Below are positions 1 through 42,981 of a stretch of 64,000 nt of DNA, piece by piece. This stretch comes from an uncultured Methanobrevibacter sp. GTDB lineage: Archaea; Methanobacteriota; Methanobacteria; Methanobacteriales; Methanobacteriaceae. Below the pieces are notes generated by a model. That model made no database searches, had not been told where the DNA came from, and saw only the letters and a program-made list of their open reading frames with translations. The stretch is taken from NCBI GenBank assembly GCA_947628455.1, contig CANQZY010000001.1:84613-148612 (forward strand), in the 5' to 3' direction. The position numbers and the translations under genes are program-made. Every line of letters starts with the position of its first letter. The stretch's first letter is position 1.

Positions 1-1
1 C

Positions 2-220
2 TATGATCAGGAAAACTTTGAAGAAATATTTGAGTATATGGGAAAAAGAAAAACACATTTAGCTCAAAAAATTGAAGAGTTGATTCAAATTGTACAAGAA
101 GAATTTAAAAAAGATAAAATTTATGAAGAAAAAATAAAAAAATTAGAAATTGAGAATGAGGAATTAAAAAATAAATCAAATAATAATTCATTTTTAAATA
201 AATTAAAAATATTTAAATGA
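2..220 (+). CDS. C-terminal fragment of a CDS truncated by the window edge (Lys/Glu-rich coiled coil)
   Basis: Frame is open from base 2 (YDQENFEEIFEYMGKRKTHLAQK...) to TGA at 218-220; the ORF-track Met at 38 is probably internal. Confidence 0.6.
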   Translation, partial: YDQENFEEIFEYMGKRKTHLAQKIEELIQIVQEEFKKDKIYEEKIKKLEIENEELKNKSNNNSFLNKLKIFK

Positions 221-259
221 AAAAATATTATAATATATAACTTATATGGAGCGATTTTG

Positions 260-349
260 ATGAATAAAATGCAAATAGCTGCGCTTTTTATTATTTTAAT
301 TATGGCTTTAAGTGGAGTAGCAGCGTTTATATTATTAGTAGTAGGATAA
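260..349 (+). CDS. 29-aa single-pass hydrophobic microprotein (MNKMQIAALFIILIMALSGVAAFILLVVG)
   Basis: ATG...TAA open frame with a continuous TM-like segment; below the ORF-track length cut-off. Confidence 0.5.
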   Translation: MNKMQIAALFIILIMALSGVAAFILLVVG

Positions 350-415
350 AAATTAGGTTCGCAGTTCATTGTGAATCCAGTGAGTACTGCTTATATTATT
401 AGTAGTAGGATAAAA
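327..415 (+). repeat. 25-bp direct repeat ttatattattagtagtaggataaaa at 327-351 and 391-415
   Basis: Two identical 25-mers 64 bp apart; first copy encodes the C-terminus and stop of the microprotein. Confidence 0.85.
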
Positions 416-453
416 TTAAAATATTTAAATGCATTTAGTTGGGGATTTAGAAT

Positions 454-870
454 ATGGTAAAATATAAAATTGGGGCTGTTGTAGCAGAATTTAATTATGA
501 TATAACACAAATGATGTTAGGGCTTGCAAAAGAAGAAGCAAAATTTCATGATTGTGAAATAACTAAGGTTGTAACTGTGCCGGGAGTTTTTGATATGGCT
601 TTAATTATTAAAAAACTTCTTGAAAAGGATGATATTGATGCAATTGTGGCAATTGGAGCTGTGATTGAAGGTGCGACAGATCATGATCAAATAGTAGCAC
701 AACATGCGTCTCGTAAAATTGCAGATTTATCTTTAGAATTTGAAAAACCTGTCACATTGGGTATAAGTGGACCAGGTATGACTAGATTAGATGCTCATCG
801 TCGTGTAGATATGGGTAAAAAAGCTGTTAATGCTGCTATTAAAATGTGTGATAGATTAAATGAAATTTAG
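454..870 (+). CDS. ribH: 6,7-dimethyl-8-ribityllumazine synthase
   Basis: VAEFNYDIT, VPGVFDMA, AIGAVIEGATDHD motifs; 138 aa. Confidence 0.93.
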   Translation: MVKYKIGAVVAEFNYDITQMMLGLAKEEAKFHDCEITKVVTVPGVFDMALIIKKLLEKDDIDAIVAIGAVIEGATDHDQIVAQHASRKIADLSLEFEKPVTLGISGPGMTRLDAHRRVDMGKKAVNAAIKMCDRLNEI

Positions 871-878
871 ATGATTAA

Positions 879-1826
879 ATGGAGATTTTAAAACCTAAAC
901 AATTAAAAGAAAAATTCAATGATCCATGGATCGCCCCTTATGAAAAAGTTCTTACAATGGTGGATAAAGATAAAGTAGAAATTGTAGAATTTCATCCATG
1001 CGTTTCAGGTTCTCATTGGCTTTTAAATCAATATAAAAATAATAGTGATCTTATTGATAGTGCATATAGAGATGGGAATAAACATGTTTATTCTTGTCAT
1101 GTGGGAAGTGCTCCAATTGATTTGAAAGCTAGTTTTAATGCGGCTGGTATTGATGAGATTAAAGTTGAAAATGAGGAAGTTAAAGTAACTCATTCTGGTC
1201 TTGCAGGTGCAGGTGTTGGTGCTGGAATGTGTAGGGGAATGGGTGCAGGTGTTAAATATATTGAGTTATTGGAAGTTGGAGGTGGTTCAAAATCTGGTAG
1301 GGCTACTATTGTAACACCAAAAATGAAAAAGATAGTTATTGGTATTGATGATACAGATACTAAAAACTCTGGCGCTACATGGACAATGGCCAATAATTTA
1401 GGTATTGAACTTGAAAAAGAAGGATTTGAATATTTAGATCATACTATTATTCAGTTATACCCTCATAATCCTTATAAAACTCAAAATTGTGTTTCTATAG
1501 CTTTGACTTTCGCTGTTGAAAGTGAAAAAAAAGAAAAATTAATTAATAAAACTATAGAAATTCTTAAAAGAGACACATTATCTGATAAAACAGCGATTGC
1601 TATTTTAGAAGGTCTTGAAATTCCTGAAAAATTAAGACAATATTCTATTGATACTAAATCTAAAATGATGGACTTGGAAACAGCAGAAAAAGTAGCTAAA
1701 GATCTAAATATTCCTTTAATAGCAATTACTGGTGATCAAGGTAAAATAGGTGCTCTTGCGGCTCTTGGACTTTATAATGATGTTGAAGAGGCTGTGAAAA
1801 TTTATAATAAAGATATAATAGAATAA
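879..1826 (+). CDS. Methanogenesis marker protein 11
   Basis: HPCVSGSHWLLNQYKN, GLAGAGVGAGMCRGM and VIGIDDTDTKNSGATW motifs. Confidence 0.85.
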   Translation: MEILKPKQLKEKFNDPWIAPYEKVLTMVDKDKVEIVEFHPCVSGSHWLLNQYKNNSDLIDSAYRDGNKHVYSCHVGSAPIDLKASFNAAGIDEIKVENEEVKVTHSGLAGAGVGAGMCRGMGAGVKYIELLEVGGGSKSGRATIVTPKMKKIVIGIDDTDTKNSGATWTMANNLGIELEKEGFEYLDHTIIQLYPHNPYKTQNCVSIALTFAVESEKKEKLINKTIEILKRDTLSDKTAIAILEGLEIPEKLRQYSIDTKSKMMDLETAEKVAKDLNIPLIAITGDQGKIGALAALGLYNDVEEAVKIYNKDIIE

Positions 1827-1845
1827 ATTCTATATCTATTTTTTT

Positions 1846-3561
1846 TTATTTTACAGAATTAATTTGTAAGAAATGGCCTTGTTGGCTATTTAAAAATTGT
1901 TGAATTGAAGTTATATTATCATCTGTAATATTAATTGTTATCTTATGATTATCATAATTAAATATATAGCTATTTTTTGAGAATGATCCGTTTGTGTAAT
2001 TTAATGTGCCTATGGTATCTTTATTAAATTTAATAGCATATGTATTATTTTCAATAAATATTCCTGTAATAGATCCAAATGATTGATTATCGATAGTTAT
2101 GTCCAATTTATAGCTTTCATGACGTGGTGATATAATATATGAATCAGATAATGTGTAGTTATCAGTTGTTGAGATATTATGAATAGCTACGTTTCCTTCA
2201 AATATTTGTGTGAGTCTACTATTTTGAATTATATCGCCATCACTTAATTGTAGTACTTGTTTTACCTCAGCTGGAAGTCTTAATATATACACTTCATCTA
2301 ATGTTGTTTGATTTATCTCATATGGTCTATTATCTATGATTAATCTGTCGCCATAATCAAGACCTAAACTATCAAGTGCATCCCTTGGTATTCTTAATAT
2401 ATTAGACTCATTGTTAAATGAACTATCTACTGAGTATGGTCCTCTTACAGAAATTGCATCACTACTATCTTCAGAAAATAATATTAAATTTCTTGATGTA
2501 GGCTCAATAGAAATCGAACCATTATCAAATGTAGCTGCTCCAATAAATGTTGAAATCATTAAAATTAAAACAATAGCTGAAATTAAAACGGGAAAATGAA
2601 TTTTGATAAATGATTTTAATAAATTACCTTTAGGAATCCTTTTAAACATTGCAATAGATTTTACAATAACCTTAATTAAATAATAAATGGTCATGACTAT
2701 TCCAATTATAACAATTATAACACCGATTTCTAATGGGAAAAATTTAACAAAGAAGATTGTAAATAATCCGAGAATAATTAATGAAAGACCCACAATTGTC
2801 ATTCGAATAAAGTAACCAATATCATCAATTAATACTATTCTTCCATAATTATTAGCTCTATTTATAATTGTTCTTACAACCTCATTAGCCATTAAATGTA
2901 AATCTTCTAATGGTGACATGTCATGTTTGATATTACCTATATCTATTTCTTGAATTGTTATTCCTTGTACATCTGCATCTAACACAATTCCAACATCTAC
3001 TCCATAATCTGGTTCAAAATTTATTTTTTTAAGTGCGCTTTTTTTAGCTGCAAATTGACCGCTTAAAGGTTGTTCAAATGAAATTTCTGGAAAAAAGAAA
3101 TTTAAAAGTGGTTTTGCAGTAAGTTCTGTTACGCGTCCTTTTTCACGGGCGAATTTTGTTTTTGTGATTTCTGTTTTACCTTCTAAGATAGGTCTTATTA
3201 TAGCATCAACTTTTTTTTCTGTTAAATTTTGAATATCTGCATCAATAAATGCTAGTATATCGGCATCTGTATATTTATAACCTGTTTTAATTGCTTCTCC
3301 TTTACCTTTATTTTTAGAATGAGTTAATAGAGTAACTTTAGTTTTTTTAACTTCTTCAGCTGTGTTATCTGTTGATCCATCATCAACTACAATAATTTCA
3401 TCAACATAATCTAATTTTTTAATAACTTCAATAACAGTTGATACATTTTCTTCTTCATTAAAAGCAGGAATGATAATAGCTATTTTTTCATGTTCATTAT
3501 TATTTTTTGTTGTATTAAATGAAGTCAATAAAAAAGTTAATAATACTATTAACCAAGACAA
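1846..3561 (-). CDS. Family 2 glycosyltransferase with C-terminal TM segments and an AbrB-like tandem extracytoplasmic region
   Basis: IAIIIPAFNEEENVSTVIE, VDDGSTDNT, FIDADIQ; TM helices; two ILR(I/L)P...L.L..GD repeats near the C-terminus. Confidence 0.85.
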   Translation of the reverse strand: MSWLIVLLTFLLTSFNTTKNNNEHEKIAIIIPAFNEEENVSTVIEVIKKLDYVDEIIVVDDGSTDNTAEEVKKTKVTLLTHSKNKGKGEAIKTGYKYTDADILAFIDADIQNLTEKKVDAIIRPILEGKTEITKTKFAREKGRVTELTAKPLLNFFFPEISFEQPLSGQFAAKKSALKKINFEPDYGVDVGIVLDADVQGITIQEIDIGNIKHDMSPLEDLHLMANEVVRTIINRANNYGRIVLIDDIGYFIRMTIVGLSLIILGLFTIFFVKFFPLEIGVIIVIIGIVMTIYYLIKVIVKSIAMFKRIPKGNLLKSFIKIHFPVLISAIVLILMISTFIGAATFDNGSISIEPTSRNLILFSEDSSDAISVRGPYSVDSSFNNESNILRIPRDALDSLGLDYGDRLIIDNRPYEINQTTLDEVYILRLPAEVKQVLQLSDGDIIQNSRLTQIFEGNVAIHNISTTDNYTLSDSYIISPRHESYKLDITIDNQSFGSITGIFIENNTYAIKFNKDTIGTLNYTNGSFSKNSYIFNYDNHKITINITDDNITSIQQFLNSQQGHFLQINSVK

Positions 3562-3795
3562 AAATTCACCTTCATAAATATAATTTATATAGGTTTAAAT
3601 TTGTTAATTAAATAGTATAAATGTTTTTACAGAATTATAAAGAAAAAAAATAAAGGTAATATAATTTATCTATTTAATAAATTATTTTAAATTAAAATCT
3701 TAAATATTTTATTTAATAATAATATTTTTACTATTAAAAAAATAAAATAAGATATAATAAAAAGAGTCTGATTTAAGAAATTATTATGATTTTAT

Positions 3796-5307
3796 ATGAA
3801 TATTAAAGTGGCTATATTAAATAAGAAAAAGTATTTATTGGTATATATTGTGCTTTTAATCTTTTTTACACTTTGGTTTTTAGTTCCAAATAAATTTGAA
3901 AATATAACACTTGCATCATTATTATTTATTTTATTATTAGTAATTGGAGTAGTTTCGATTTGTTATTTTAATATTAATAATCAAAATTTACATAAATTAT
4001 CTTTTATAATAATATTGTCCTTTGGAATAATTTCACTATTTTTATCTCCTATAAATGATATTTCAGATGAAGGAGAGCATACTATAAGATCATATATATT
4101 ATCTGAAGGTAATTTACAGCCAGATTATGTTATAATTCCCAATACAGAGTATAATGGTTATGAAGCTATTAATTCAGTTGTTGATTTAGCCAATTCAAGA
4201 GGAATTAATGTTTTTAATACAGGAATTGATGATTCAAAAATTGATTATGGAAATAACTATTTTAACTCGGCTTTTGCCCAAAATCCATTTTATGCTTATA
4301 TTGCACAAGCTATTGGAATGGAAATAGCAAAATTATTAGATTTAAATAGCATATGGCTTTTATGGCTTGCGAGATTTTGTAATATTCTACTTTATAGTTG
4401 TGTAATAGCTATATCAATTAAAAAAGTTCCCATATTCAAATTTCCATTATTAATTATCAGTATATTCCCATTAGCTATTTATCAAGCTGCATCTACAAGT
4501 GCAGATTGTTTTTTTAATGCATTTGCTATTTTAGCTATCGCATACTTTTTTATTTTATATAAATCAAATAAAATAAAATATTTAGATTTAGGTATTTTTT
4601 ATGGAAGTATTATTTTATGCGGTCTTTTAAAGCCCCCTTATTTAGCATTAGCTTTTTTAATATTTATAGTCCCAACCGCTAATTTCAAAGACCATCAACA
4701 ACATATTATTTCAAAATTAGCCATTTTAGCTGTTTTACTTACAGGTGTGAGTTGGTGTAGTTATTCAACAACACAAATTCAAAATTCATGGAGAATCGAT
4801 TATTTTTTAGCTAAACATGTTAATGGATCACAACAACTAGATTTTATGCTCTCAAATCCATCATTTGATATATGGTATTTCTTTAATACATTTTTAAATT
4901 TACCAACAATAACTTATAGATTGTTTAATTTTTCAAATGGTCCCAATTCATATTATTCTAGTTTACTTACTTACTTATATTCAATATTTTTCATACTTTT
5001 TTCTTTATTATATCCTTTAAAAGAAAAAATCAGATTTTTAAACAAACTTAAAGCTTTTATTATTTTAGTTATAATTTATGTGGGACTTTTTTTCGTTCAA
5101 TATTTAACATGGGTTCCTGTAGGATCACATATTATTGTAAGTGGCGTAATGGGAAGATATTTCATTCCTTTATTAATCTTTTTACCATTTATTTTTAATT
5201 TAAATCTCAATAAAATTAATAAAAATAAATTCCAGATATTAAGTATAACATTGGCTATTATTTTTATAGCTGCCGTTATGATGTTAACCTTAAGTTTAAA
5301 TTATTAG
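3796..5307 (+). CDS. DUF2142-type polytopic membrane protein (glycosyltransferase-C-like)
   Basis: Multiple TM segments; NDISDEGEHTIRSYILSEG and GVMGRYFIPLLIF motifs. Confidence 0.7.
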   Translation: MNIKVAILNKKKYLLVYIVLLIFFTLWFLVPNKFENITLASLLFILLLVIGVVSICYFNINNQNLHKLSFIIILSFGIISLFLSPINDISDEGEHTIRSYILSEGNLQPDYVIIPNTEYNGYEAINSVVDLANSRGINVFNTGIDDSKIDYGNNYFNSAFAQNPFYAYIAQAIGMEIAKLLDLNSIWLLWLARFCNILLYSCVIAISIKKVPIFKFPLLIISIFPLAIYQAASTSADCFFNAFAILAIAYFFILYKSNKIKYLDLGIFYGSIILCGLLKPPYLALAFLIFIVPTANFKDHQQHIISKLAILAVLLTGVSWCSYSTTQIQNSWRIDYFLAKHVNGSQQLDFMLSNPSFDIWYFFNTFLNLPTITYRLFNFSNGPNSYYSSLLTYLYSIFFILFSLLYPLKEKIRFLNKLKAFIILVIIYVGLFFVQYLTWVPVGSHIIVSGVMGRYFIPLLIFLPFIFNLNLNKINKNKFQILSITLAIIFIAAVMMLTLSLNY

Positions 5308-5346
5308 AGATATAATATCTCCTAATATAATCCTTATTATTAATTA

Positions 5347-6273
5347 TTAATCTTTTTTATTTAATCTTAAAGTTGTTAAATAATTTTCAAATTGTTGATA
5401 GTGTTGTTTGTTTAATATATGTAAAATAACACCAGTAAAAAAGATTATTATAGCAATAATAGCTATTCCCACAACCATTATTAATGTAGGGATTTTATCA
5501 ACATACCCTGTCTCTAGATAATTAAAAAACACAGGTGTGAAATAAATTAAAGCTATTATAAGTAGTATTAATGTTAAAAGTGAGAAATAAAAAAGAGGTT
5601 TGGTGTCTCTAAAAAATGCGAATAAAACCTTAATTACTTTTATCCCATCTCTATATGTATTAAGTTTTGGTTCACTTCCTTCTATTCTATCTTTGTATTT
5701 TATAGGCACTTCTTTTATTAAAAAATTATGTGTAAGTGCAAATATACTCATTTCTGTTTCGATTTCAAATTCTTTAGATGAAATAGGGAATGATTTTGCA
5801 AATTCATAACTAAATCCTCTCATTCCTGTTAAAATATCTGATAGATTACTTTTAAAAACAGTGTTTATAAACTTTCTAACAAACCTATTCCCTATATTAT
5901 GAAATGGTCTTTTATTTTCTTCAAAATAGGTACATGATAATCTATCCCCAATCACCATATCTGCTTTGCCAGATAAAATTAGTTTTTCTATTTCAGGAGC
6001 TGCTTCTGCAGGATATGTATCATCTCCATCTATCATTATGTAACAATCAGCATTAATGTCTCTAAACATTGACCTGACTACGTTTCCTTTACCTTGTCTG
6101 TATTCTCTTTTAACAATTGCTCCTGCATTTTTAGCTATTTGATATGTATTATCTTGCGAGTTATTATCATATACATAAATATCTGCATTAGGCATTAATT
6201 TTTGATAATCTTTTATAACTTTTTCAATTGTAAATTCCTCGTTAAAACAAGGTATGAGAATAACTGTTCTCAT
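5347..6273 (-). CDS. Family 2 glycosyltransferase (dolichyl-phosphate sugar synthase-like) with C-terminal TM helices
   Basis: VILIPCFNEEFTIEKVI, YDNNSQDNT, MIDGDDTYPAE, GMRGFSYEFAKSFP. Confidence 0.88.
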   Translation of the reverse strand: MRTVILIPCFNEEFTIEKVIKDYQKLMPNADIYVYDNNSQDNTYQIAKNAGAIVKREYRQGKGNVVRSMFRDINADCYIMIDGDDTYPAEAAPEIEKLILSGKADMVIGDRLSCTYFEENKRPFHNIGNRFVRKFINTVFKSNLSDILTGMRGFSYEFAKSFPISSKEFEIETEMSIFALTHNFLIKEVPIKYKDRIEGSEPKLNTYRDGIKVIKVLFAFFRDTKPLFYFSLLTLILLIIALIYFTPVFFNYLETGYVDKIPTLIMVVGIAIIAIIIFFTGVILHILNKQHYQQFENYLTTLRLNKKD

Positions 6274-6413
6274 TCTTCCCCATCTTTAAATCCAAGATCT
6301 TTTTTTTGTAATCTTGCTATATTATCTGCTAGTGCAGAATGTTTATCAGCTGTTTTTTTCTTTAAATGATAAGCCCATTTTCCTTTTTTAAATGAAGATT
6401 TTTTATTTTTCAT
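6270..6413 (-). CDS. 47-aa basic microprotein, stop/start overlap (ATGA) with downstream GT2
   Basis: MKNKKSSFKKGKWAYHLKKKTADKHSALADNIARLQKKDLGFKDGEE; TCA stop at 6270-6272 overlaps GT2 start 6271-6273. Confidence 0.6.
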   Translation of the reverse strand: MKNKKSSFKKGKWAYHLKKKTADKHSALADNIARLQKKDLGFKDGEE

Positions 6414-6540
6414 ATTCATTTCACAATAAAATTTTATCGATGAATATATATAGTTATTTCTATTATATGATAATTTTTATATAATTTTTTATAAAATTAA
6501 TACTTAATTAATAAATTAAATTTTTAGCTGGATATAAAAA

Positions 6541-6966
6541 ATGAAAGATAATTTTATATATATATTATTTAAAAAAAGAACAGATAATCCTTTTCTTCAG
6601 TTTTTTAGATATATATTTGTTGGTGGAACATCATTTATCATAGACTTTTGCATTTATCTATTATTGATCAATTTTATAAATTTAAATTATTTGATATCTG
6701 CAGCTATTGCCTTTTTTATATCTGTTCTTGTTAATTACTATCTCAGTACATCATGGGTTTTTAATCAAGACCATATTGAAAATAGATTAATAGAATTTAA
6801 TCTTTTTATATTAATTAGCTTAATAGGTCTTGTTTTTACAGAAATTTTATTATATCTCTTTGTTGATATTTTTAATATAAACTATATTTGGTCTAAATTA
6901 ATTGCTTCGATTATAGTTCTTTTCTGGAATTTTTCTGCTCGTCGTATTATGTTTTATGGTAAATAA
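6541..6966 (+). CDS. GtrA family membrane protein
   Basis: FFRYIFVGGTSFIIDFCIYLLL, VNYYLSTSWVF; four TM helices. Confidence 0.85.
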   Translation: MKDNFIYILFKKRTDNPFLQFFRYIFVGGTSFIIDFCIYLLLINFINLNYLISAAIAFFISVLVNYYLSTSWVFNQDHIENRLIEFNLFILISLIGLVFTEILLYLFVDIFNINYIWSKLIASIIVLFWNFSARRIMFYGK

Positions 6967-7061
6967 AAATTAAAAATTTCTTTTTGAGTAATTTAAAAGA
7001 AAAATCCATATATATTAGTTTAAACTAATGGTAAGTATTTATTAAATAAGGTAATGTTAAT

Positions 7062-8078
7062 ATGATTCCAAAAGTTATGGTTATATTAGGAAGTGGGTCT
7101 GATATTGAAATAGCTAAAAAGACTACAAATATGTTAGAGAAGTTAGAAATTCCTTATAGTTTAAAAATAGCTTCAGCGCATAGAACTTATGACTTAGTAA
7201 GAGAACTTGTTCAAAAAGGTACAAATGAAGGTATAAAAGTATTTATTGGAATTGCGGGTCTTGCTGCTCATTTACCTGGAGTAATAGCTGCTTATACTTC
7301 CAAACCTGTTATAGGTGTTCCTGTATCCGTTAATTTAGATGGTTTAGATTCTCTTTATTCAGAAGTTCAAATGCCTTATCCATACCCCATAGCTACAGTA
7401 GGTGTAAACAGGGGAGAAAACGCAGCTATTCTTACTGGTCAAATTATTGCTCTTAATGATTCTAAAGTTGCTGAAAATATTTTTAAATTACGAGAAGAAT
7501 ATGAGAAAAAGGTTATTGAATCTAATGAAAAGATTATTCAAAAAATAGAAAATAAATATATTAATAATGATTTTTTAAGAGTTAAAAATCTTAAAATTGA
7601 AAATGAACCTGTAAAAGAATATCCTGAATTTAATTATGATAATAAAGTTTCCATTATAGCCAGTAATTATATGGATTTAGTAGTAGCTAAAAAAACTGCC
7701 GTAGTATTAGATAGGCTTCAAATAAATCATGATTTACAAATAATTTGTCCTATTAGACAACCTAAAAAATTTCGTAATTATGTTCTTGGAATGAAAAATA
7801 CTGAAATATTTATTGGAATAAGTTCTAAATCCGCAGTCGTAACAGGAGTTTTAACAAGTCTAACAAGTAAACCTGTTATAGGAGTTCCTTGTAAAGATGA
7901 GTTTGGATATGATTCTCTTTTAAGCATGGTAAATATGCCTCCAGGATTTCCTGTAGGTACTTTAGGGATAAATAATGGAAGAAATGCTGGAATACTTGCA
8001 GGTCAAATGTTATCTAATGATGATTCCAAAGTACAAAACAATTTAGAAAAAATTAGAAATAAAAAAATCAATATATAA
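7062..8078 (+). CDS. purE: N5-carboxyaminoimidazole ribonucleotide mutase/AIR carboxylase-like, tandem PurE domains
   Basis: Domain 1 VILGSGSDIE, SAHRTYDLV, IAGLAAHLPG; domain 2 repeats the fold (SLLSMVNMPPGFPVGTLGINNGRNAGILAGQML). Confidence 0.92.
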   Translation: MIPKVMVILGSGSDIEIAKKTTNMLEKLEIPYSLKIASAHRTYDLVRELVQKGTNEGIKVFIGIAGLAAHLPGVIAAYTSKPVIGVPVSVNLDGLDSLYSEVQMPYPYPIATVGVNRGENAAILTGQIIALNDSKVAENIFKLREEYEKKVIESNEKIIQKIENKYINNDFLRVKNLKIENEPVKEYPEFNYDNKVSIIASNYMDLVVAKKTAVVLDRLQINHDLQIICPIRQPKKFRNYVLGMKNTEIFIGISSKSAVVTGVLTSLTSKPVIGVPCKDEFGYDSLLSMVNMPPGFPVGTLGINNGRNAGILAGQMLSNDDSKVQNNLEKIRNKKINI

Positions 8079-25751: not shown

Positions 25752-26903
25752 ATGGGAAATATTTTTGATAATCTAGAACAACAAAAATCAATTTTTAAAA
25801 ACAAAAAACCTTTAGATCATAGATTTTTACCTGATAATTTACCACATAGAAAAGAACAAATCACTCAAATAGCTCAATATTGGATTGAAGCATTAAATAA
25901 TGTAACTCCTTCAGATGTTACTATTTATGGAAAAACAGGTACAGGTAAAACAGCAGCTGTAAAATTTGCAAAAGAACAATTAGAAGAAGCTAGCGCTAAT
26001 AAAAATGTTTTTGTTAAAGTAGAATATATTCGCTGTACTGATTATACAACAGAATATCAAGTAATAGCACAATTATGCCAACTACTTGGAAGAAACGTTC
26101 CACAACGTGGATGGACTAAAGGTGAAGTAGTAAACGCATTTAGAGATATTTTTAAAACCAATGCTTTTGGTAAAAAACTTATTTTAATTGTTATTTTAGA
26201 TGAAATTGATATTTTATTAGAAAAAGATGGTGATGGGATATTATATACACTTACACGGACAGATAATGTTTCTATTTTATCTATAAGTAATTATGTTGAT
26301 TTTAAAAAATTTATAAAACCTCGTGTTATGAGTAGTTTAAGAGATAAAGAAATTGTATTTCCACCATATGGAGCAGATCAATTAGCAGATATTTTAAAAG
26401 AAAGAGCAGCACTATCTTTTTATGATGATGTTCTTGATGATGATGTTATACCTTTATGTTCAGCAATGGCTGCTAAAGAAGAAGGAGATGCAAGATATGC
26501 TTTGGATTTACTTAGAACAGCAGGTGAAATAGCTGATGATGAAGATTCAGATAAAATTTATGGAAAATATGTTAGGCAAGCTAAAGATAGAATAGAACAC
26601 AATAAAGTAACAGACATTATTTTAACACTCCCAACCCAACAACAAAGAGTTCTTGAAGCTATTTTAAAATTAACACAAGATGGAGAAGAAATTACTTCAG
26701 GAAAATTATATGACACATATAAAGAAGTTTCAAAAGGAGATAGTGTAACATATAGAAGAATTTTTGATTTTATAAATGAATTAGAAATGTTAGGAATTAT
26801 TTCAACTAATACTATATCTCGTGGTCGTGGAAAAGGAAGAACAAATATTATCACACTTCAATGTGGAACAGACCTTTTAGAATCCACTTTATATTTTGCA
26901 TAA
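25752..26903 (+). CDS. cdc6: Orc1/Cdc6 family replication initiator
   Basis: [54 protein letters not shown]-terminal winged helix. Confidence 0.94.
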
Positions 26904-40050: not shown

Positions 40051-41163
40051 ATGTCTCTTTTAAAAACAATACAAATTTTAACAGATTCAGCACAATATGA
40101 TTTATGTGATTATGTAAATTCTAATAAACAATCTTCTATAAATTTACCTGGAATTTATCAAGCAACATCTAATGGTTGTAAAGTTCCTATTTTTAAAACA
40201 CTCATGTCAAATAAATGTAAAAATGATTGTAAATATTGCATAAATCAATCTAAAAGAAATTTTCAGAGACTTCAGCTAACTCCTGAATATTTATCTAAGA
40301 TTTTTATAGATTATTATAATAGAGGACATGTTTTTGGTTTATTTTTGAGTTCAGGAATATCTGATGATCCTGATGAAACAATGGAGAATATAATTGAAAC
40401 AGCATATATTCTACGTAAAAAATATAGCTATAAAGATTATATTCATTTAAAAATAATTCCTGGAGCAAATAAAGATTCGATTAAACGTGCTATGGCTCTT
40501 TCAAATAGAGTAAGTATTAATATTGAAGCAGCTACTGCGGATGGTCTTTCAACAATATCTTCAACAAAAGATTATAACAATGATATTTTAAAACGATTAA
40601 GATGGATAAATTCTTTAAGAAATTCAAAAGATGTTTTTCCTAGATCTACATACACAACACAATTAATTGTTGGAGCTAATGATGAAACAGATAAAGAAAT
40701 CTTAACTAGGATGAGTAAAATTTATAAAAAATTTAAACTTAAAAGAACATATTTTTCACCATTTTTTCCGGTTGAAGGTACAGAATTTGAAAATAAAAAA
40801 GCTTGCAGTGAATATAGAACAAATGCTCTATATAATGCGGATAAATTAATTAATAGTTATGGATATAATGTTAAAGAACTTGTTTTTAATGATAATGATC
40901 AATTATATTTAAATGAAGATCCGAAGATTTTAGCAGCTGAAAGAATGGATATCTTTCCTGTTGAAATTAATCAAGCTCCATATTATGATTTAATAAGAGT
41001 TCCAGGAATAGGAACTAGAAGTGCACATAAAATAATATCTTTTCGCCATAAAAATCCATTTTCTTCTTATCATCAACTAAAAGAAATTGGAGTAGTGGTT
41101 AATAGAGCCGAAAAATATATCACAATCAATGGAGAAATTCAATCTAATTTAGATTTTTTTTAA
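40051..41163 (+). CDS. Radical SAM protein with C-terminal helix-hairpin-helix (COG4277-like)
   Basis: NKCKNDCKYCINQSKRNFQR; YDLIRVPGIGTRSAHKIISFRHKNPFSSYHQLKEIG. Confidence 0.82.
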   Translation: MSLLKTIQILTDSAQYDLCDYVNSNKQSSINLPGIYQATSNGCKVPIFKTLMSNKCKNDCKYCINQSKRNFQRLQLTPEYLSKIFIDYYNRGHVFGLFLSSGISDDPDETMENIIETAYILRKKYSYKDYIHLKIIPGANKDSIKRAMALSNRVSINIEAATADGLSTISSTKDYNNDILKRLRWINSLRNSKDVFPRSTYTTQLIVGANDETDKEILTRMSKIYKKFKLKRTYFSPFFPVEGTEFENKKACSEYRTNALYNADKLINSYGYNVKELVFNDNDQLYLNEDPKILAAERMDIFPVEINQAPYYDLIRVPGIGTRSAHKIISFRHKNPFSSYHQLKEIGVVVNRAEKYITINGEIQSNLDFF

Positions 41164-41825
41164 ATTTCTTTAAATAATTTCCAGATTTCAGGATATTTTT
41201 TACTCACGGCTTCATCAATTAAAACAGCCCCTTCTTTACTAATACTGAATTCAGGTTCGGTTTTTCGTAAGTATCTAAATACTGCTGCTGAATGTGAGGA
41301 CCAAAGTGTAATTCTTGGATTTTTATTAACAATTTCTTTAACTTCTTTTATGTTTTTAATTTCTTTTTCAGTTAAAGTTTTATTAATTTCTTTTTCTGTT
41401 TTAGCAACATCTTCAGATTTTTCTTTATTTATTTTTTTCTCTTCTATTTTAATATTTTTTTCAACACCTATTTCTTTTTCAACAGTATCAAAGTTTTCAT
41501 CAAAAAATTCTCCAGGAACTTCTTTATTTTTTTCTCTTCTAATTGTTTCTTTTTCAGTATATTTTTTATCAATTTCAGTTTTTATTTCATTATCAGATGG
41601 CGGTTTTTTTTTATTTAATTTTAAATTTTTTTCTTTTAGATTCTTTTTATCTTCCGATACTGGATTTACTTCAGTAACATCATTTTCTTTAATATTTTTT
41701 TCTTGATCTTCATTTAACATCTCTTCTAATGAAATTGAATTATTACTATCAAATTCTTCATTATAAAAATCTGGAATTAATGAATCAAGACCTTTTCCTA
41801 GTCCACTTTGTCTTTTTTTGGCCAT
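41160..41825 (-). CDS. ParA-partner protein: ParB-type N-terminal motif, charged linker and small C-terminal domain, no recognisable ParB core
   Basis: MAKKRQSGLGKGLDSLIPDF N-terminus; K/E-rich linker; C-terminal NPRITLWSSHSAAVFRYLRKTEPEFSISKEGAVLIDEAVSKKYPEIWKLFKEI; directly downstream of parA. Confidence 0.7.
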   Translation of the reverse strand: MAKKRQSGLGKGLDSLIPDFYNEEFDSNNSISLEEMLNEDQEKNIKENDVTEVNPVSEDKKNLKEKNLKLNKKKPPSDNEIKTEIDKKYTEKETIRREKNKEVPGEFFDENFDTVEKEIGVEKNIKIEEKKINKEKSEDVAKTEKEINKTLTEKEIKNIKEVKEIVNKNPRITLWSSHSAAVFRYLRKTEPEFSISKEGAVLIDEAVSKKYPEIWKLFKEI

Positions 41826-41832
41826 TATATCC

Positions 41833-42612
41833 CTACTTCTTCTTTTTGTCTCTACTTATAATTTCTTCAGCTAATTTTAAATAAGCTTTTGTCCCTTTAC
41901 TTTTAGGATCATAAATTAAGCAGGGTTTTCCTCTACTAGGAGCTTCTGCTAATCTAATGTTTCTAGGTATTACTGTTTTTAGTAATAAATCATTTTCAGA
42001 AAAATAATTTTTAAGTTCTTGATGCACATCTTTACTTAGATTAGTTCTTCTATCATAAAGAGTTAATAAAATACCTTTTATTGGTGTTGGACTTCTTAAA
42101 CGTTTTTCAACTAATCTTATTGTATTTATTAAATCAGCCACACCTTCTAATGCATAATATTCTGCTTGTATTGGTATCAATACACTATCTGAAGCTATTA
42201 ATGCATTTACTGTTAGAACACCTAATGAAGGAGGTAGATCTATAAATACATAATCGAACAATGAAATAACTTCTTTTAATGCTTCTTTTAAAACAATGTG
42301 ATAATATTCTTTTTTTGTTAATTCCATTGTAGCATCACTTAATACTATATTGCTAGGAATTATGAATAAATTCTTAATAAAAGTAGAAATTGTTGCTTTT
42401 TTCACGTTTATATTTCCAATTAAAACATCATAAATTGTATTTTCTAATTCTGTTTTATCAATTCCAAAACTTGTTGTTGTATTTGCTTGCGGGTCCATAT
42501 CGACAACAAGTACAGTTTTTCCCATTACAGCTAATGATGTAGCAGTATTTACAACTGTTGTTGTTTTTCCGCAACCTCCTTTTTGATTCATTACAGCAAT
42601 TACTTCACCCAT
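41833..42612 (-). CDS. parA: ParA/Soj family partition ATPase
   Basis: VIAVMNQKGGCGKTTTVVNTATSLA (deviant Walker A), VDMDPQANTTTSFG, VFIDLPPSLGVLTVNAL. Confidence 0.93.
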   Translation of the reverse strand: MGEVIAVMNQKGGCGKTTTVVNTATSLAVMGKTVLVVDMDPQANTTTSFGIDKTELENTIYDVLIGNINVKKATISTFIKNLFIIPSNIVLSDATMELTKKEYYHIVLKEALKEVISLFDYVFIDLPPSLGVLTVNALIASDSVLIPIQAEYYALEGVADLINTIRLVEKRLRSPTPIKGILLTLYDRRTNLSKDVHQELKNYFSENDLLLKTVIPRNIRLAEAPSRGKPCLIYDPKSKGTKAYLKLAEEIISRDKKKK

Positions 42613-42648
42613 TTTTTATCCCCATTATATATAATACTTCTAATTTTT

Positions 42649-42851
42649 AACTTATTAGAATTAAGTTATAATATATATGTTATTATTTTTAATAGATAAC
42701 TTAGAATTTTTAACTTTTAAGATTTAACATTTAAGTTATTTTTTATAACTTTTTACATATAAGTTTTCACTTTTAATGTATAACTTAAATCTTATAACTT
42801 TTTATTTTTAATATTTAACTTATCTATTATAACTAATAAGTTATAACTTAT
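42649..42851. repeat. Cluster of about 11 TAACTTA/TAAGTTA-type repeats in both orientations, ending in 16-bp palindrome ATAAGTTATAACTTAT (42836-42851); possible centromere-like site
   Basis: Read directly from the intergenic sequence between parA and the divergent gene at 42982. Confidence 0.6.
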
Positions 42852-42981
42852 AATAAAAAAATAATTATTATAATTTATAAATTCATTAAATAGTATAAAA
42901 TTAAATGTAATCTAGTAATAATTATATTTACAAATATCTAAAACATTAAATATATTAATAAAAAAAGAAACTATTTAATAC

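Follow-up and report, generated by a model that had tools for sequence, protein, structure and literature searches.

A probable origin-linked SegAB chromosome-partition locus with a ParB-type peptide and a candidate heptad centromere in Methanobacteria

A segA-segB gene pair of an uncultured Methanobrevibacter species very probably constitutes an origin-linked, ParABS-like chromosome-partition system of the SegAB type, with SegB as the centromere binder. The pair is located on the minus strand of the 64,000-nucleotide stretch of DNA analyzed here (hereafter the window), and, in line with the initial annotation, both a ParA and its partner were found among the open reading frames. The upstream gene, segA (41833..42612), encodes a ParA/Soj-type Walker ATPase of 259 aa (AAA_31, E=1e-62), and the co-oriented segB (41160..41825), which follows after a gap of 7 bp, encodes a 221-aa SegB-family partner with the N-terminus MAKKRQSGLGKGLDSLIPDF and a profile match to SegB in the PDB. 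Among the loci of relatives with both genes on the retrieved DNA, segB is also found directly downstream of segA, and the segB partner was identified in 136 of the 152 genomes covered from the phylum and in all 20 sampled genera. Convergent with segB, and overlapping its end by 4 bp, is a plus-strand gene (40051-41163) for a radical SAM protein, which carries a C-terminal helix-hairpin-helix and is TIGR03916-like at a score below the cut-off.

No Pfam, NCBIfam or ParB family matched the 221-aa partner above any cut-off, and Pfam search revealed neither a ParB CTPase core (ParB_N, GERR) nor an HTH in it, as had been proposed from the open reading frames. Comparison of the family profile (alignment A1) with the PDB recovered S. 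solfataricus SegB (7duv, E=2.4e-12; 7dv2, E=2.4e-9), with the alignment extending across the C-terminal domain, and a reverse profile (A3), which itself includes the S. solfataricus SegB sequence, recovered the Sulfolobaceae SegBs at 1e-17 to 1e-26. Judged by these profiles, the partner carries the C-terminal domain of SegB, which pairs with SegA in archaeal SegAB systems and binds DNA as a ribbon-helix-helix protein, and the earlier proposal that ParA activation is coupled to a different DNA-binding module is borne out at the level of sequence. The domain (residues 150-221; 41163..41378, minus strand; AlphaFold2 pLDDT 80) contains the invariant elements NPR, WS, KT-P-FSIS and KYP-IW. The alignment and the model together predict a ribbon-helix-helix (41163..41249, minus strand) consisting of the ribbon FSIS, a helix at residues 197-210 and a short helix at 212-216, and this element aligned to FKMS and the following helices of S. 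solfataricus SegB. The AlphaFold2 helices of the domain (4-19, 28-36, 48-61 and 63-67 of 72 residues) are placed as expected, and FSIS would form the strand of the ribbon-helix-helix, which is unpairable in a monomer model. The best two PDB fold matches of this monomer model were both SegB, albeit weak ones (TM 0.47-0.49; E=1.7 and 3.3), which may reflect the modelling of only one chain from a dimer whose chains are intertwined.

The initial annotation had proposed the pair as a candidate for an undescribed system, in which ParA activation would depend on a chromatin-binding module resembling half of a histone fold. Although a helix-loop-helix appearance at the C-terminus and the conservation of a ParB-type N-motif are compatible with this explanation, the identity of the domain as SegB by profile refutes it, and neither Pfam, nor the PDB profile matches at E<=10, nor the fold matches, of which the best two (weak) are SegB, included any histone; we regard it as exceedingly improbable. 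The claim of novelty was also lost, given the SegB match (7duv, E=2e-12) and the published occurrence of euryarchaeal SegB next to ParA (PMC5120986; PMC12284271). Thus the family search of the C-terminal domain led to a known DNA-binding segregation family, which favours the segregation role of the earlier proposal and removes its novelty. SegAB and its presence in Euryarchaeota are already known: SegB orthologues, always encoded downstream of segA, have been described in some Euryarchaea, and M. thermautotrophicus was named in a discussion of the ploidy of segAB-bearing genomes (PMC5120986), while segAB/SegB was later described as widespread in Euryarchaeota (PMC12284271).

The C-terminal domain is preceded by a charged linker (residues 19-149; 41379..41771, minus strand), which is poorly conserved in alignment A1, ranges from ~130 aa to almost nothing among relatives and is nearly gone in those of the Methanothermobacter type. 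Across 29 aligned sequences, the invariant positions are L9, G10, G12, L13 and L16, together with 23 more within the C-terminal domain. Long tandem repeats occupy the linker in some Sulfolobaceae SegBs (L108, L111, L112 and L113), where, for example, GGESGGQRVESRVQ is repeated many times. In addition, scattered SegB-like proteins (L065, L067 and L066) were observed in another archaeal phylum (G184 and G229, with a fragment in G250), and that of G184 is without the LGKGL motif (MGKKETAVEKMRRKMEQKE).

The N-terminal invariant residues belong to a ParB-type ParA-activating motif, SGLGKGLDSLIP (residues 7-18; 41772..41807, minus strand). A total of 57 euryarchaeal SegBs were recovered, two of which lack the motif, being masked or cut at the N-terminus, and LG[KRML]GL is present in all 55 intact SegBs from Methanobacteria and Halobacteriota; the earlier observation of a ParB-type N-motif on an archaeal ParA partner has therefore held as a conserved feature. 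Within the window, LG[KRML]GL occurs once in the six reading frames. Because the motif is shared by all 55 intact relatives and its gene lies directly downstream of parA, it is not attributable to chance. Its central residue is Lys in 35, Arg in 10, Met in 8 and Leu in 2 of these sequences, and the ten with Met or Leu in place of the basic residue include the Methanothermobacter type (family f2) and a few other relatives. In M. xanthus ParB, the R13A substitution abolishes ATPase stimulation, and Lys replaces R13 in about half of chromosomal ParBs (PMC12462528). The N-terminus of Sulfolobaceae SegB is SELDxLLxRKK rather than LGKGL, and the N-terminal domain of S. solfataricus SegB stimulates the SegA ATPase, according to the account of Yen 2021 given in a citing paper.

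The ATPase appears to match this peptide. The best PDB matches of SegA are bacterial ParA/Soj proteins (228 and 215 bits), compared with 67 bits for Sulfolobus SegA, and methanobacterial SegA shares 48% identity with a bacterial Soj versus 31-32% with Sulfolobaceae SegA. In M. xanthus, R13 of the ParB motif is predicted to lie next to the invariant ParA residues Y81 and E117 (PMC12462528), the equivalents of which we positioned by the D58/D60/N64 anchors. The Y81 position is Tyr in 54 of 54 methanobacterial SegAs and deleted in 14 of 14 Sulfolobaceae, and the segment that bears it is extra in the methanobacterial protein relative to SegA of the Sulfolobus type; the E117 position is Glu in all 54 and in Sulfolobaceae as well. 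The Methanothermobacter-type pairs with Met or Leu in the motif still keep the SegA Tyr. In a diverged second parA-segB pair (L071:3680-4760; G159 C1, ~478 kb), which is possibly a mobile or specialised copy, the SegB has GFGADMGSML, having lost the basic residue of the motif, and the contact Tyr of the ATPase is replaced by Arg. The contrast with Sulfolobaceae and this double loss suggested that the SegB body is kept while the activating peptide changes in step with its contact site on the ATPase.

ParA-family ATPases with small basic-tailed partners are generally known to position many cargos, and the pair could in principle be a MinD/McdA-type system for another cargo (a division site, an archaellum or a carboxysome-like body), in which case the partner would be an adaptor that does not bind DNA. 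However, SegA is closest to chromosomal Soj, its MinD matches in the PDB being weaker, the partner carries a SegB DNA-binding domain by profile and segAB shows linkage to the origin, all of which makes such a role very unlikely. A chromosomal ParB encoded elsewhere was considered as well, as two ParB genes are present on contig C16 of the same assembly (G000, 1-8000, L051), the only contig of the assembly with ParB_N genes, and the ParB there has LGRGL. This candidate was rejected, since the gene order mnmE-mnmG-rsmG-noc-soj-spo0J is bacterial, and the contig looks like bacterial contamination.

Upstream of segA lies a contiguous array of ~31 units of 7 bp (42641..42857, minus strand) with the consensus WAA(G/C)TTA (WAASTTA), which stops 28 bp short of the segA start codon; this strict iteron array in an AT-rich region had been missed in the initial annotation. 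Of the 25 G/C bases of the array, 20 occupy the fourth position of the unit, and the information at a 7-bp phase is 0.565 bits/base, compared with a mean of 0.066 and a maximum of 0.161 in 2000 shuffles. Similarly, identity at lags of 7, 14, 21, 28 and 35 is 0.59-0.64, in contrast to ~0.37 at other lags. The window has no second strong array and no similar part elsewhere. The array carries TAAGTTATAACTTA palindromes; the Sulfolobus SegB motif TCTAGASTCTAGA is present in the window at chance level, without enrichment. In a 63-bp scan, 7-bp periodicity upstream of segA exceeded all 100 shuffles in all tested Methanobrevibacter loci and likewise in the Methanothermobacter-type loci, where the surrounding DNA is richer in G+C (0.35-0.47). 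By the same scan, the array was not detected upstream of segA at one locus (L049), and it is weak or minimal at six (L050, L072, L075, L077, L079 and L080).

In Methanothermobacter-type genomes, exact double heptads (TAASTTATAASTTA) occur two to three times per genome, all within ~31 kb of segAB, and the reversed control pattern is absent from these genomes. A 21-bp version with three mismatches allowed yielded 6-16 sites per Methanothermobacter-type genome versus 0-2 for the control. Distant exact double heptads were also observed in other genera (G073, G133, G147 and G029). Those of G073 (G073:C1:2103088-2103216), around which no significant array was found, and of G133 and G147 may be secondary SegB sites or AT-rich chance occurrences. 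S. solfataricus SegB is known to bind palindromes upstream of segA (PMC5120986), and in Thermococcus no clear sites were reported near segAB, with quite different ones expected (PMC12284271). On sequence grounds, the array is a candidate for both the centromere and the operator of SegB.

The locus is also positioned close to a replication initiator gene. An orc1/cdc6 gene (25752..26903, plus strand; Cdc6_C, E=1e-23; Cdc6_lid, E=7e-28) lies ~15 kb from segAB in the window, and the distance between the two is 10-85 kb in 13 of 13 genomes of 1.5-2.9 Mb, which are not independent, as related genomes share gene order, although five genera agree. GC skew around orc1/cdc6 in the window revealed no sharp switch, and the position of the origin is therefore taken from orc1/cdc6 alone. 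In several genomes, satellite arrays are found away from segA and near orc1/cdc6; in G047, for example, the two satellites (~1286880 and ~1294866) have orc1/cdc6 (1279041) on one side and the segA array (1317958) on the other. Origin-proximal SegB sites have been reported in Sulfolobales.

These satellites bear on whether segAB is a self-regulating pair concerned mainly with nucleoid organisation or gene regulation, with SegB on the array repressing segAB from an operator and segregation as a secondary role. The proximity of the main array to the segA start codon (28 bp) and its being the only strong one in the window would agree with such a function, and an operator role was not excludable in Sulfolobus (PMC5120986). 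However, arrays of at least 200 bp far exceed the needs of an operator, the satellites near orc1/cdc6 are remote from segA, and repression does not call for a ParA ATPase whose activator contact site is intact. We thus consider a mainly regulatory pair unlikely and favour chromosome partition.

For the partition system, we propose that a SegB dimer binds, via its C-terminal ribbon-helix-helix, to the 7-bp array that precedes segA and, where relatives have them, also to the nearby satellite arrays, lining the heptads as omega does its own. The two N-terminal ParB-like peptides of the dimer would project on flexible linkers and dock at the ATP-bound SegA dimer on the nucleoid, where they would trigger ATP hydrolysis and release, so that the array would follow the SegA gradient and sister origins would move apart. 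SegB on the array probably represses segAB as well. More specifically, we regard it as somewhat probable that chromosome segregation in Methanobacteria relies on a chimera of a bacterial Soj, a ParB peptide and an archaeal SegB, acting on an origin-proximal WAASTTA iteron centromere. If this is true, the array would be the first chromosomal centromere to be predicted in a euryarchaeon, and SegAB would have switched its ATPase type and its activating peptide in concert, with retention of the DNA-binding body. Neither the ParB-type peptide of SegB and its pairing with a Soj-type ATPase, nor the heptad array, nor the linkage of segAB to orc1/cdc6 in these genomes was found in the literature covered by our incomplete search. 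Chromosome segregation in Euryarchaeota is largely unexplained. The array offers an exact DNA target, short enough for testing, in gut methanogens and Methanothermobacter, and the matched change of peptide and ATPase contact may serve as a natural experiment on the switching of ParA ATPases.

Several known systems share features with the locus. Like the AspA-ParB-ParA system of the archaeal plasmid pNOB8, it would be an archaeal ParA-based partition system, but pNOB8 uses three proteins including a ParB, and neither AspA nor ParB was found at the segAB locus. The delta/omega system of plasmid pSM19035 resembles the locus in combining a small ParA with a ParB-like protein of the ribbon-helix-helix fold, which is predicted for SegB here, and in its centromere of contiguous 7-bp units overlapping a promoter, omega2 coating 7-10 contiguous heptads of the promoter-overlapping parS (PMC4498918); it differs in residing on a plasmid rather than a chromosome and in the sequence of the unit, and omega did not emerge among the sequence relatives. 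Bacterial ParABS (Soj/Spo0J/parS) shares the ATPase type (48% identity), the N-terminal activating motif, the contact Tyr/Glu and the linkage to the origin, whereas the partner described here is without the ParB CTPase core or HTH and the sites are iterons instead of parS. SegAB of Sulfolobales (PMC5120986; PMC12284271; 7duv/7dv2) has the same arrangement, with segB immediately after the gene for a ParA-type ATPase, a homologous SegB C-terminal domain, and candidate sites upstream of segA that cluster near segAB and an origin. In contrast, its SegB begins with SELDxLL rather than LGKGL, its SegA is of 220 aa rather than the 259-aa Soj type, its sites are TCTAGA-S-TCTAGA rather than 7-bp AT-rich iterons, and its genes overlap instead of being 7 bp apart. 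SegA is thus not of the Sulfolobus type, yet published euryarchaeal SegB orthologues have been filed under SegAB, which, as far as sequence comparison can indicate, marks the methanobacterial locus as a variant of SegAB.
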